A model generated the notes under the pieces. The model was not told the DNA's origin, ran no database searches, and was given only the letters and a program-made list of their open reading frames with translations. Positions 34,704 to 41,734 of a stretch of 64,000 bases of DNA are shown here, piece after piece. Position numbers and translations under genes: made by a program. The stretch comes from Coriobacteriia bacterium (lineage in GTDB: Bacteria > Actinomycetota > Coriobacteriia > Coriobacteriales > Eggerthellaceae), in assembly GCA_030537355.1 (NCBI GenBank), contig JAUNNF010000004.1:62001-126000 (forward strand), in the 5' to 3' direction. Positions within the stretch are counted from its first letter, which is position 1. The number at the start of each line of letters is the position of its first letter.

Positions 34704-34707
<4 letters not shown>

Positions 34708-36131
34708 TCAGACTTTGCCTGTTGCAATTCCTTGTCCTGCTTCAAAACTTTACGTCCACGTTTTTTCCAAAAGTCATATGTGTATCTTAATTGTTTGTGT
34801 AGTAATTTCTCTTCTTTGTTACGATATTCAGAGCTACACTCCTCAACAATGTTCGGGCAATTTGCCAGACGAAGACAACTAGGACAATGCTTACACGTTC
34901 TGCATTCTTCTTTATATGGGTACAACCTTTCCCATTCTTTAATAATATCCTGATTATAATCATTTGAATAAATGCTACCCCATGTAGGTAAAGCCTCAGT
35001 AAAATGTTCACATTTTGTAAGATTTCCATCAGGCAAAATAACGACAGACTGTTTTGAGTCAGCCATACAGTGATTCATCTTTATAGATCTAGGAAGAGCA
35101 TCTGCAGATGCGAGATGTTTATTAAATAGTAAATTCTGGATTTCCAACTCTCTATCATAGCATTCTTCTAAACTTTTATCAGACATTGCTCTTTTTGTGC
35201 CTACCTTTGATATTTCTTGAAATAACGTATGACAGTAAACATGTACGTATTTGTTGTTAGCAAATCTTTTTGATAAAATTTCAATTAAGTCTTTTATATC
35301 TTCTTCGTTCTCGGGAGATAAATTAAGACGAATTAAAACTTTAATTTTGGCCTTTATTAATAGATCGATATTGTCAAGTACTCTCGAAAAAGGATCTCGA
35401 GTGTCATTTTCATCTAAAACGGCATAAGATTTTGCATTGTTATATACATCTCGAGTCCCATCTAGAGTAATTTGTAGGGACTTAAGATTCCATAAATTAA
35501 CTGCTTGTTTAATTAATTTTTCATCAAACATATAGCCGTTTGTTATCATAGATGAAGTATAATCGTATCCGTCCCTTGAAAGCTCATTACAAATAATATC
35601 AATGGCCTCGTAATTAAAAAGAGGCTCGCCTCCAAACCAAGCTAAATGTATATTTTTTTTATCTTTTGAAGATTTTTTAATAAAATTAGCAACATCAAAC
35701 GCCATCTGCTTGTCCATTGTTGCTTTTTCGCAGCCGTTTTCATAACAATAATAACATCTAGCATTGCATTCAGTAGTTGTAAGTATAGTAAAACTTGTTA
35801 ATCCTGTATCAATATTGCTATTTTCATAGACAACATTATAGATATCTCTTACTTGCTGAAATGTTTTTAGCTCATCAAAATTTTTGGGGACCAAGTACCA
35901 ACCTTCTATAAGCTTTTTAATCGTAGGGTGATCTGTATCTAAATTTTCTAGAGCATCTTTTTCTGATTTGTTTAACACCCAAGCAGATTTTGTAAAATTA
36001 TTGTAAAGCACAAGGCCTCCATCGTCTGTATCGTCTTGTACTACAAAATTCATCATACGATAATCTGAAGATGGCTTCTGTTTGCCCAAAATAGACTTTA
36101 TATTGTTTCTTTCGTTATAAATTATTTCCAT
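34704..36131 (-). CDS. Radical SAM/SPASM peptide-maturase-type protein
   Basis: 475 residues. Residues 1 to about 105 are an N-terminal module (YNNFTKSAWVLNKSEKDALE) as in peptide-modifying radical SAM enzymes. The radical SAM centre is TECNARCYYCYE (C-x3-C-x2-C, about residues 118-129), followed by HLAWFGGEPLFN and LQITLDGTRD. The C-terminal SPASM region has MNHCMADSKQSVVILPDG, KCEHF and CRTCKHCPSCLRLANC for extra iron-sulfur clusters. Such enzymes install crosslinks or epimers in ribosomal peptides, or activate sulfatases. The preceding gene, 3 bases away, encodes a PqqD-like protein, the usual leader-binding partner, so I infer a RiPP role. No precursor gene is visible. Confidence 0.85.
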
Positions 36132-36134
36132 TGT

Positions 36135-36398
36135 CTACTCTATAACACCAGCATCAATCATTTGGTTTACAATGGCATCAATATCGCGTCTAGCGGATTC
36201 AGCTGACACATCGTAAACTTCTGTAAATTTTTCTACAATATCATCTATGGACTTACCCTCGTCAATCATGTCCCAAATTAATGAAGCTGAAGGGTTAAGT
36301 TTAATTATGCCTTCAAAATCCTTACTAGCATCTCCTGTTGGCACAACAACCATATCATCCATAATAGGTCGCTTTACAAAACCTTCTTTGATTTTCAT
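36135..36398 (-). CDS. PqqD-family peptide-chaperone (RiPP recognition element)
   Basis: 87 residues from ATG 36398, chosen because GGAGGTAATT precedes it directly (the frame extends to 36410). The sequence has the PqqD pattern: FVKRPIMDDMVVVPTG, a central FEGIIKLNPSASLIWDMIDEG, then SIDDIVEKFTEVYDVSAESA and a last helix DIDAIVNQMIDAGVIE. PqqD-like domains bind the leader of a precursor peptide and present it to a radical SAM enzyme, here the next gene with a 3-base gap. It follows mtaB with 14 bases between. Confidence 0.85.
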   Translation of the reverse strand: MKIKEGFVKRPIMDDMVVVPTGDASKDFEGIIKLNPSASLIWDMIDEGKSIDDIVEKFTEVYDVSAESARRDIDAIVNQMIDAGVIE

Positions 36399-36412
36399 AA
36401 TTACCTCCATGT

Positions 36413-38258: not shown

Positions 38259-39146
38259 TTATTGAGTATTTGTATGATCGTAAACAGCGCCTTCAACGTC
38301 ACTCATATTAGCTTGATTTCCAGCGCCTTCAGTTTTAGGTACGGCATCTAAAAGCAAGTTTTTAGCAAGATACTTACTCTCAATTACTCCAAATGTACCA
38401 TTTTTCTTAAGCTGTTCAAGAATTACAGCAATTTTAGTTTGAAGTAGGACATTGCTCTCATATACACCTACACAATACCCACTTGGATTGCTGAGAAGCC
38501 CAATAAGATAGCAGGACACATCAGAATTATTTGCTATATAAGTACCAACTACAGCATCTGCAGCAACATAATCAACTCTATTGTTGTTTAAGGAATCAAA
38601 GCATGCAGTCAAATTACTTTCGAGTTTAATATTAGATACGTCTAGCTGATTTTGAGCAGCAAGAGCGCCTGAAGAAGCCATTTGAGCACCGACCTTTTTG
38701 CCGTCGCCTTTTTTAGGTAGAGGAGCATTTGCACTTTTTGCAAAAAGAGCGCTAGCAGTATCAACGTATTTCTCAGATTTCCAGCAATTGGCTAAAGTAG
38801 CACTTTTATCAACGCCCATAACAATATCAACTTTTTTATCCTTTAGAGCTTTTGCTCCGTTGGTTCCCACATCTTGAATCTCAACATTTAGGCCAAGACC
38901 GTCACCAATAGCATAAGCAACATCAACGTCAATACCGCTCATTTTTGATGTCTCACCTGCTAATGGAGGATTGTCTGCATCTACTCCTACCTTTAGCGTA
39001 CCTGATTGGATAATATTAGGTGTATTAATTTGAGCATTTTTTAATTCTGGTTTATAGTTGCTTGAGCATGAACATAAAACAACAATAAGAGACATAAAAG
39101 TAGCTAAAACTACGATTCTTAGTATATTTTTCTTTACTTTAGTCAT
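38259..39146 (-). CDS. Family 3 solute-binding lipoprotein (amino-acid type)
   Basis: 295 residues. A signal peptide with lipobox-like LCSC (cysteine at residue 27) is followed by GTLKVGVDADNPPLAG, MSGIDVDVAYAIGDGLGL, DIVMGVDKSATL and YVAADAVVGTYI, the pattern of extracellular family 3 (SBP_bac_3) binding proteins for polar amino acids. No ABC permease or ATPase gene is nearby, so it is an orphan receptor or works with a distant transporter. GGAGGATAT precedes ATG 39146. A GC-rich foldable leader of about 190 bases lies upstream, suggesting RNA-level control. The C-terminal 25 residues (KTEGAGNQANMSD) are non-conserved. Confidence 0.88.
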   Translation of the reverse strand: MTKVKKNILRIVVLATFMSLIVVLCSCSSNYKPELKNAQINTPNIIQSGTLKVGVDADNPPLAGETSKMSGIDVDVAYAIGDGLGLNVEIQDVGTNGAKALKDKKVDIVMGVDKSATLANCWKSEKYVDTASALFAKSANAPLPKKGDGKKVGAQMASSGALAAQNQLDVSNIKLESNLTACFDSLNNNRVDYVAADAVVGTYIANNSDVSCYLIGLLSNPSGYCVGVYESNVLLQTKIAVILEQLKKNGTFGVIESKYLAKNLLLDAVPKTEGAGNQANMSDVEGAVYDHTNTQ

Positions 39147-39167
39147 ATATCCTCCATTTAATATCTA

Positions 39168-39336
39168 GCTTCTTCCCTGACCTAGTCTTTGCCCCCACAC
39201 TCGCGTGAAAATCACGACTTACATCTAGAACGCGCCATGCTCAGGTTTTAATACCCTTACGTGGGTCCTTTCGACCGCGTCTGCCATGGACTTGAGGAGA
39301 CTACACCGAATCCTCGCAACTACAGTCGGAAGAAGC
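39168..39336 (-). ncRNA. Candidate structured leader RNA of the binding-protein gene
   Basis: 169 bases that are clearly richer in G+C than the surroundings and carry no ORF. Read on the minus strand the ends pair perfectly (GCTTCTTCC at 39336-39328 with GGAAGAAGC at 39176-39168). Inside are CGTGA/TCACG with a three-base loop, ACCC/GGGT around ACGTAA, GGTC/GACC around GAAAG, GAGGA/TCCTC and CCATG/CATGG. A -10 box is placed so that transcription starts at the first base of the outer stem. The 3' end is about 8 bases before the ribosome site of the lipoprotein gene. I could not match it to lysine, cobalamin, SAM, TPP, FMN, 6S, SRP or T-box patterns from memory. The plus strand is possible but has no comparable promoter. 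Confidence 0.6.
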
Positions 39337-39342
39337 ATCTAT

Positions 39343-39348
39343 ATTCTA
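39343..39348 (-). promoter_or_regulatory. Extended -10 box in front of the structured leader
   Basis: Minus-strand TAGAAT preceded by TGC (TGCTAGAAT, an extended -10). Counting 7 bases downstream reaches 39336, the first base of the outer stem of the leader. No good -35 is visible, which an extended -10 can tolerate. Confidence 0.5.
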
Positions 39349-39392
39349 GCAAAAAATTATTAAATAATTGTACTTATTTATAGGTTTTTTGC

Positions 39393-39433: not shown

Positions 39434-40084
39434 ATGGCAAATATTAAAAGCCAAAAGAAAAGAATTAAAACAAACGAGAAAGCTCATATCAGAAATGTAG
39501 CTTACAAAAAGGAGATTAAAACTCAGACTCGTAAAGTTAAAGATGCAGTAGATGCTAAAAAGGCAGATGTAGCTCTTAAAGAAGCCTTAACTGCATGCAA
39601 ATTACTCGACAGAGCTGCTGCAAAAGGCATCATTCATAAAAATCAAGCCGCTAACAGAAAAAGTGGCATCATGGCTCTAGCTAACCAAATTGTTACTGAT
39701 AAAGAACGCACAGCATATAAGCCTGAACCAAAGAAAACTCCTGAAAAAAAAGGTGGCACAAAAAAGGCTAAGGCAAAGGAAGAACGCGAGAAGGCCATGA
39801 AAAAAGAATCCGAAGAAAAAGCAAAACGCCGTGAAAAGACTCAAAAAGCTCAAAAGGCTGCAGAAAAGAAAAAGGCAGCTGAAGAAAAAGCTGCTGAAGA
39901 AGCTACTCCAGAGACAGAGGCTCCAGCTGAGGAGGCTCCTGCTGCTGAAGAAGCACCTAAGGAAGAAGAAAAACCTGCTGAAGAAGCACCTAAAGAGGAA
40001 GAGCCTAAAGCAGAAGAACCTCCTAAAGAAGATCCTCCAAAAGAGGAAGAAGCACCTAAAGAGGAAGAGAAAAAAGAAGAGTAA
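39434..40084 (+). CDS. rpsT: 30S ribosomal protein S20 with a long charged C-terminal tail
   Basis: 216 residues, where S20 is normally 85-90. Residues 1-88 are a standard S20 ([45 protein letters not shown]) that binds 16S rRNA. From about residue 95 the sequence is a Lys/Ala/Glu helix-former ([20 protein letters not shown]) that then becomes an acidic Pro/Glu/Ala repeat region (units such as APKEEE, AEEAPK) ending KEEEKKEE. The tail is likely disordered. There is no stop between the parts and the transcription terminator follows 4 bases after the stop. AGGAGG precedes the ATG by 5 bases. Confidence 0.95.
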
Positions 40085-40088
40085 AATT

Positions 40089-40113
40089 AAAGCTCCCGAA
40101 AGGGAGCTTTTTT
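40089..40113. terminator. Bidirectional intrinsic terminator between rpsT and the methyltransferase gene
   Basis: An 8-base stem AAGCTCCC/GGGAGCTT with GAAA loop is followed by a T run on the plus strand (ending rpsT), while on the minus strand TTTAATTTTA follows the same hairpin, serving the methyltransferase gene that stops at 40112. It is one of the few clear terminators in the window. Confidence 0.85.
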
Positions 40114-41080
40114 ATGAAGCCTCTCTAATAGCTTCATAAATATTTCCAGCAATACGCTCAATCACAGAAACGCAAACTGAATTACCAGCTTGTTTGTATA
40201 GTCTAGCATCGCTCATATCTTTAGGCAATTTGTAATTTTTAGGAAAGCCTTGAGCATTAAAACATTCATGAGGAACCATTTTTCTAATTCCAAACTTCGT
40301 TTTCACAATACAAACATTGTGTCCGCCTTCTCCTTGATTTGCTGTTAAAGTAGGAACAACACCGCTTTTGTTTTTTCTGACATACTTTCTACGCCATTGG
40401 TAAACAGCACGATCGTCATCTATCGAATCTACAAGTTTTTCATAAATATTTCCCTTGTACTTACCTTTTGTGTAATAATATTTGTCATCAAATTTTTTAT
40501 CAAAATCAATAATATCACTAAGCTTAGTTTCTAATTTAACCGGATATGGAAATTCGAAATTTTTAAATATCTCTTTAGACTTAAAAGCAACAACGTAAAT
40601 GCGTTCTCTGTTCTGAGGGATATTTCCGTACTCCATAGCATTAAGCACCTGATATTTAACTTTATAACCTAAATTTTGTAATTGCTCTAGAATTACCCTA
40701 AAAGTATTACCATTGTCATGACTAACAAGATTTTTAACATTTTCAAGGAAAACAATATCTGGTTCTTTATCTTTTACGATACGAATAAGTTCAAAAAATA
40801 AAGTGCCACGCCCTTTATTATCCTCAAATCCTTCTCTAAGGCCTGCCTGAGAAAAGGGCTGACAAGGAAAACCAGCAAGCATAATATCGAAATCTGGTAT
40901 ATCTGAAGATTTAATATCTTTGATATCTCTTGTGTCGACCGAAATATCAAAATTCAATTCATAAGTGTTAGCTGGATAAGAATCAAATTCGTTAGCGTAA
41001 ACTGTTTTAAATTTACCCGTATTTTCGAAACCTAAATCAATACCACCAACACCAGCAAAAAAAGATGCAACCTTATACAT
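40112..41080 (-). CDS. DNA (cytosine-5)-methyltransferase of a type II system
   Basis: 322 residues with the C5-methyltransferase motifs in order: I FFAGVGGIDLGF (about 6-17), IV MLAGFPCQPFSQAG with the catalytic cysteine, VI FLENVKNL, VIII PQNRERIYVV, and X KQAGNSVCVS. The target-recognition region between VIII and IX (about residues 185-260) contains RWRRKYV-like and PTLTANQGEGGHN blocks. It methylates cytosine within the recognition site of the partner nuclease encoded just upstream. A GGAG site lies 6 bases before ATG 41080. The recognition sequence is not readable; GCNGC is a guess from the nuclease resemblance. Confidence 0.93.
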   Translation of the reverse strand: MYKVASFFAGVGGIDLGFENTGKFKTVYANEFDSYPANTYELNFDISVDTRDIKDIKSSDIPDFDIMLAGFPCQPFSQAGLREGFEDNKGRGTLFFELIRIVKDKEPDIVFLENVKNLVSHDNGNTFRVILEQLQNLGYKVKYQVLNAMEYGNIPQNRERIYVVAFKSKEIFKNFEFPYPVKLETKLSDIIDFDKKFDDKYYYTKGKYKGNIYEKLVDSIDDDRAVYQWRRKYVRKNKSGVVPTLTANQGEGGHNVCIVKTKFGIRKMVPHECFNAQGFPKNYKLPKDMSDARLYKQAGNSVCVSVIERIAGNIYEAIREAS

Positions 41081-41101
41081 TTAAACTCCATTCGTTAAAT
41101 T

Positions 41102-41113
41102 GCGGCACGCCGC
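41102..41113. promoter_or_regulatory. GC-rich palindrome in the methyltransferase leader
   Basis: GCGGC-AC-GCCGC, an inverted repeat of 5 bases separated by 2, in a very A/T-rich gap. It lies 7 to 18 bases downstream of the expected transcription start from a minus-strand TATAAT (41132-41127). Both arms are GCNGC motifs. It may be an operator or a self-methylated control site. Confidence 0.45.
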
Positions 41114-41149
41114 GATTTATCTATATATTATACAAAAAAATTTGAATAA

Positions 41150-41734
41150 TTATCTGTTGTCTTCAATAATTTTTACTCTTCTAATGTCAAAAACTACATC
41201 TGGAACAAGATTATTCGGCTCGATATAAGACTGAATTAAACTTAATCTAGGCCTTCTGCCTTGTTTACGTTGATCGTCAACTGTTTGTGTTTTACTGGCT
41301 TGAAATTTACCTAAATCATGTGAATTTATATGAAAATCGTATACATATAATCGATTTTCTTGGAGATTATAACGCAAAAAAACTAAATCATCAAAAGTGC
41401 TTTTTGGTGAAAATGAAGAAAGATCGTTCTCGAAATTTGAAGTAGCTTTAAATTCTATTTTTTTCTTTCCTTCTTTGTCAAAAGCATCACCTGTTTTTCC
41501 GCCTCTGTTCCATAACAGCCCTAGGCAAAAACACCCCATTGGTTCGCTAATTGCGTCTGGCATATTTAATCCACGTTTGCTTACACTTTTAATATAAGTA
41601 TTTAAATCCTTCCATTTGAAATATGCTTCACAAGCTTCATCAATTCTTGCATTATCTATTTTGACATGCCCGACAGTAGCATAGGTAATACTTTCTTTAT
41701 CTTTACTTGGTTTATTATTTTTTGGATATGTCAT
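41150..41734 (-). CDS. Type II restriction endonuclease, Bsp6I-like
   Basis: 194 residues. A cluster DAFDKEGKKKIEFKATSNF resembles a PD-(D/E)xK active site (acidic residue followed by E-F-K), with DLSSFSPKSTFDDLVFLRYN after it and a basic segment DQRKQGRRPRLSL near the C-terminus. Size and the D..EFK plus SFSP blocks recall the Bsp6I family (GCNGC), but this is from memory and tentative. The adjacent C5-methyltransferase on the same strand, 69 bases downstream, makes a restriction role very likely. GGAGGGG precedes ATG 41734. Confidence 0.7.
   Translation of the reverse strand: MTYPKNNKPSKDKESITYATVGHVKIDNARIDEACEAYFKWKDLNTYIKSVSKRGLNMPDAISEPMGCFCLGLLWNRGGKTGDAFDKEGKKKIEFKATSNFENDLSSFSPKSTFDDLVFLRYNLQENRLYVYDFHINSHDLGKFQASKTQTVDDQRKQGRRPRLSLIQSYIEPNNLVPDVVFDIRRVKIIEDNR

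Follow-up and report, generated by a model that had tools for sequence, protein, structure and literature searches.

What is the G+C-rich, riboswitch-like element that lies just ahead of a binding-lipoprotein gene in this Eggerthellaceae genome? The original prediction, made for positions 39168-39348 of the 64,000-nucleotide stretch of DNA analysed here (the window), suggested that it may be a new or divergent noncoding RNA, metabolite-sensing or of another kind. When the whole window was compared with Rfam 15 by cmscan, three matches rose over threshold: two tRNAs and a raiA RNA (ModT; RF03072). The raiA match has an E of 5.6e-32 and a score of 123.5 bits, where the curated cut-off is 101.3; it spans model positions 1-209 of 209, the full length, and no second Rfam 15 family matched in the region of the RNA. 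A strong Rfam match, named beforehand as the result that refutes novelty, was thus obtained, and the claim of an unrecognised class therefore fails; the idea of a new metabolite-sensing class unrelated to known families, which has a riboswitch-like position and layout in its favour and nothing else, is ruled out by this full-length match above the cut-off and keeps next to no probability. As judged from its sequence, the element is a raiA/ModT noncoding RNA in a compact, short-P6 form, and the host genome carries one copy of it (Table 1).

Table 1. Features of the raiA RNA locus, in coordinates of the window
Feature	Position	Strand	Basis
raiA (ModT) RNA, full length, 169 nt	39168..39336	-	cmscan RF03072
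P1 closing helix, 5' arm GCTTCTTCC	39328..39336	-	sequence, Rfam structure, covariation
P1 closing helix, 3' arm GGAAGAAGC	39168..39176	-	sequence, Rfam structure, covariation
Short hairpin CGTGA-TTT-TCACG replacing the long P6-P8 domain of relatives	39204..39216	-	model, structure mapped on sequence, alignment
Extended -10 promoter element TGCTAGAAT	39343..39351	-	TA...T box near RNA 5' end in 31/31 loci
Lipoprotein-gene ribosome binding site, GGAGG	39151..39155	-	sequence, spacing
Gene for the SBP_bac_3 solute-binding lipoprotein, with its start codon 21 nt past the RNA	38259..39146	-	Pfam PF00497, E 1.6e-14

The Rfam match, the promoter and the order of the genes together assign the RNA to the minus strand, with its 5' end at 39336 and its 3' end at 39168. 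A plus-strand RNA, which does fold (z -2.9), was rejected on the same three grounds. Folded on its own, the minus strand is moderately more stable than shuffled sequences (z -2.1, 6/200 as good); it is the covariance model and covariation that argue for structure, single-sequence folding being weak evidence. Laying the Rfam structure on a MAFFT alignment of 25 relatives revealed changes on both sides of 22 pairs, against 14.8 +/- 1.6 in shuffles, and a covariation score of 0.304, whereas shuffles gave 0.188 +/- 0.009 and no slid version of the structure exceeded 0.164. The perfectly paired 9-base outer stem described in the original prediction is P1 (helix 1), 10 of whose 12 pairs had changed on both sides among the relatives. 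Cells were paired in 98.3% of cases for helix 1, 98.4% for helix 2 and 89.1% for helix 4, each with double changes, and many columns of the core are invariant. Because the window copy is much shorter in that part, helices 5, 6 and 8 were badly aligned and their covariation counts are uninformative. Two pseudoknots, pk-1 and pk-2, are seen by cryo-EM in raiA RNA; neither appears in Rfam's structure line. The covariance-model match and the covariation thus uphold a structured noncoding RNA that has the anatomy and riboswitch-like position originally described. Its raised G+C content is confirmed too, at 0.53 versus 0.27-0.45 in most surrounding windows.

How this RNA is likely to be transcribed can be read from its flanks. 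Its 5' end falls 6 nt past an extended -10 box, and a TA...T box lies no more than 20 nt from the RNA 5' end in all 31 loci fetched from the order, mostly in the extended form TGnTAnnnT; the window's box was not among the output of a simple two-hexamer promoter scan. Since the box sits 6 nt upstream and has a counterpart in every one of these loci, transcription plausibly begins at the first P1 base or close to it. The originally proposed interval accordingly divides in two: the first 169 bases stand as RNA, and the last 12 (39337-39348) are promoter. On the other side, the predicted binding-lipoprotein gene is indeed immediately downstream, and at each of the 31 loci from the order a homologue of it comes next on the same strand. 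The gap from RNA to start codon is 21 nt in the window and has a median of 34 nt across the 31 loci, where start codons were picked by rule and a few gaps (e.g. 1-2 nt) are probably misassigned. No terminator-like hairpin was found between RNA and lipoprotein gene in 30 of the 31 loci (L030 being the sole exception), nor is there a terminator in the window's own gap. Given the conserved -10 box, the constant same-strand neighbour and the short, terminator-free gap, we consider it very likely that the RNA of this lineage has its own promoter and forms the 5' leader of the lipoprotein mRNA.

The lipoprotein itself has amino-acid-binding proteins as its nearest solved relatives, is most similar to the lipoproteins of named Eggerthellaceae/Eggerthellales loci (L051, L075, L095, L146), which makes a host from that group probable, and reached the cut-off of no specific NCBIfam model. 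On the plus strand nearby, 39434-40084 encodes ribosomal protein S20 with a C-terminal extension of ~130 residues rich in lysine, glutamate, alanine and proline. Beside the S20 gene is a type II restriction-modification pair on the minus strand (40112-41734), a C5-cytosine DNA methylase adjoining a Bsp6I-like restriction endonuclease. Further along the minus strand (34704-36410), a PqqD-like protein is encoded with a radical SAM/SPASM protein that is similar to peptide maturases, and a RiPP-type pathway is possible there.

At 169 nt, the window copy is the shortest of those listed, against 215-274 nt in 30 fetched relatives, and its score is among the lowest, the relatives mostly reaching 130-170 bits. 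Sixty positions of the RF03072 model are reduced to 3 nt in it, and alignment reading indicates that P1 has lost two nucleotides per arm relative to the nearest relatives (GC-TTCTTTCGG...). One might read the small size and low score as signs of a decaying, non-functional copy, yet the core nucleotides are intact, the -10 box is retained and the P1 losses fall symmetrically on both arms, removing two base pairs, so that the helix is kept. Moreover, the small hairpin that stands in for P6-P8 resembles the short-P6 'variant 1', which is described as making up 32% of raiA RNAs (PMC11751092). Decay is accordingly an improbable explanation of the compact form.

The RNA is widespread around this genome. 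RF03072 was matched in 55 of 60 relatives from the family and order and in 189 of the 199 sampled genomes of the class (169/172 of the good-quality ones), and in none of 14 well-known control genomes. A search with the raiA core pattern gathered ~100 loci in named genomes, chiefly from Coriobacteriia, other Actinomycetota and Clostridia, a distribution with which the range published for raiA RNA agrees (PMC11706538). The genes that follow differ among these groups. An SBP gene is next in 24 of the 26 Coriobacteriia-type named loci; an exception within the class is an Olsenella MAG (L105), where an HPF/RaiA gene is downstream instead. Among the other named loci, the first recognised gene encodes HPF/RaiA in 27, a treble-clef zinc-finger protein in 22, an SBP in 3 and none of these in 22. 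The three SBP cases belong to Veillonella (L084, L090, L132), outside Actinomycetota, with the homologue 224-271 nt downstream of the RNA. The zinc-finger protein, ~93 aa long with two treble-clef domains (PF13451, PF23477), comes directly after the raiA RNA, its gene starting at a near-constant ~50-64 nt past the core in many rumen-type Clostridia (L035, L041, L044, L056, L057, L085, L136 and others), and no mention of this context was met in the available portions of the raiA literature.

The window RNA has neither comFC nor raiA (HPF) as a neighbour; the SBP lipoprotein gene takes their place, and the HPF gene lies on a different contig. Figures quoted in PMC11706538 put comFC beside 74% of raiA RNAs and raiA beside 66%, which makes this the commonest context and not a requirement; many family members must therefore lack these neighbours. 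A position upstream of periplasmic-binding-protein genes has itself been reported (PMC11477304, citing an earlier motif paper), and the arrangement there does not differ substantially from the window's, with the same RNA and the same type of downstream gene. Since the RNA is a member of RF03072 and its setting has already been published, neither is new.

What, then, might the RNA do? Rfam types RF03072 as 'Cis-reg; riboswitch', but raiA RNA is described as working in trans in C. difficile and C. acetobutylicum, where a role as a cis riboswitch was excluded (PMC11706538), so the metabolite sensing originally suggested finds no support. C. difficile ModT is further described in that source as highly abundant, transcribed from a sigma-A promoter and raised in G+C relative to its genome. 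The window RNA is like these clostridial RNAs in its full covariance-model match, conserved core, 5'-end promoter and elevated G+C. It differs from them in length (169 nt versus ~210-215), in having the small, variant 1-like hairpin for P6-P8, and in being followed, without a terminator, by the SBP lipoprotein gene at 21 nt, whereas raiA or a PTS operon comes next in the two Clostridia. Taking these features together, we favour as probable the reading in which the lipoprotein transcript begins with this raiA/ModT RNA and the RNA, separated from the mRNA or accumulating beside it, acts in trans. According to this reading, RNA polymerase would start at or beside the first P1 base, make the raiA RNA and then read into the lipoprotein gene, which would thereby use the raiA promoter. 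The folded RNA, protected by P1, may then be cut or trimmed from the lipoprotein mRNA or accumulate beside it, and would take part in growth-phase control as an abundant, trans-acting structured RNA, the role demonstrated for its clostridial relatives.

The main rival of trans action is a cis role in Coriobacteriia, with the RNA as a riboswitch-like or protein-sensing leader that controls translation of the SBP_bac_3 lipoprotein or the stability of its transcript. Near-constant synteny and a short gap are equally expected from such a leader and count against the trans reading. Further points for a cis leader are the ribosome binding site just past P1 and the recurrence of the SBP gene in Coriobacteriia-type named loci and downstream in Veillonella. 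Clostridial copies are often hundreds of bases away from the following gene and end in a terminator of their own, so trans action there need not extend to this lineage. Against a cis leader, no expression platform is visible: the window has no terminator or obvious element that would sequester the ribosome binding site between P1 and the start codon. In the Rfam structure, the one fold considered, the RNA has no pairing with that site. The same core also precedes unrelated genes elsewhere, those for HPF/RaiA and the zinc-finger protein, and trans complementation in Clostridia is reported to exclude a cis riboswitch there (PMC11706538). We therefore think a cis leader unlikely overall. Only tentatively would we suggest the stronger version, that the Coriobacteriia RNA is a fixed 5' leader tuning the SBP lipoprotein of the same transcript, the two acting as a single functional unit for which the Clostridia studied so far offer no parallel.

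The raiA RNA family is of general interest for its high abundance and structural complexity. To it the window copy contributes only a naturally compact variant and the clear finding, for the order, that the RNA nearly always leads an SBP lipoprotein mRNA. What is added to the reported periplasmic-binding-protein context (PMC11477304) is that the arrangement is nearly constant across one order, where a role of the RNA in cis or in processing could be tested.
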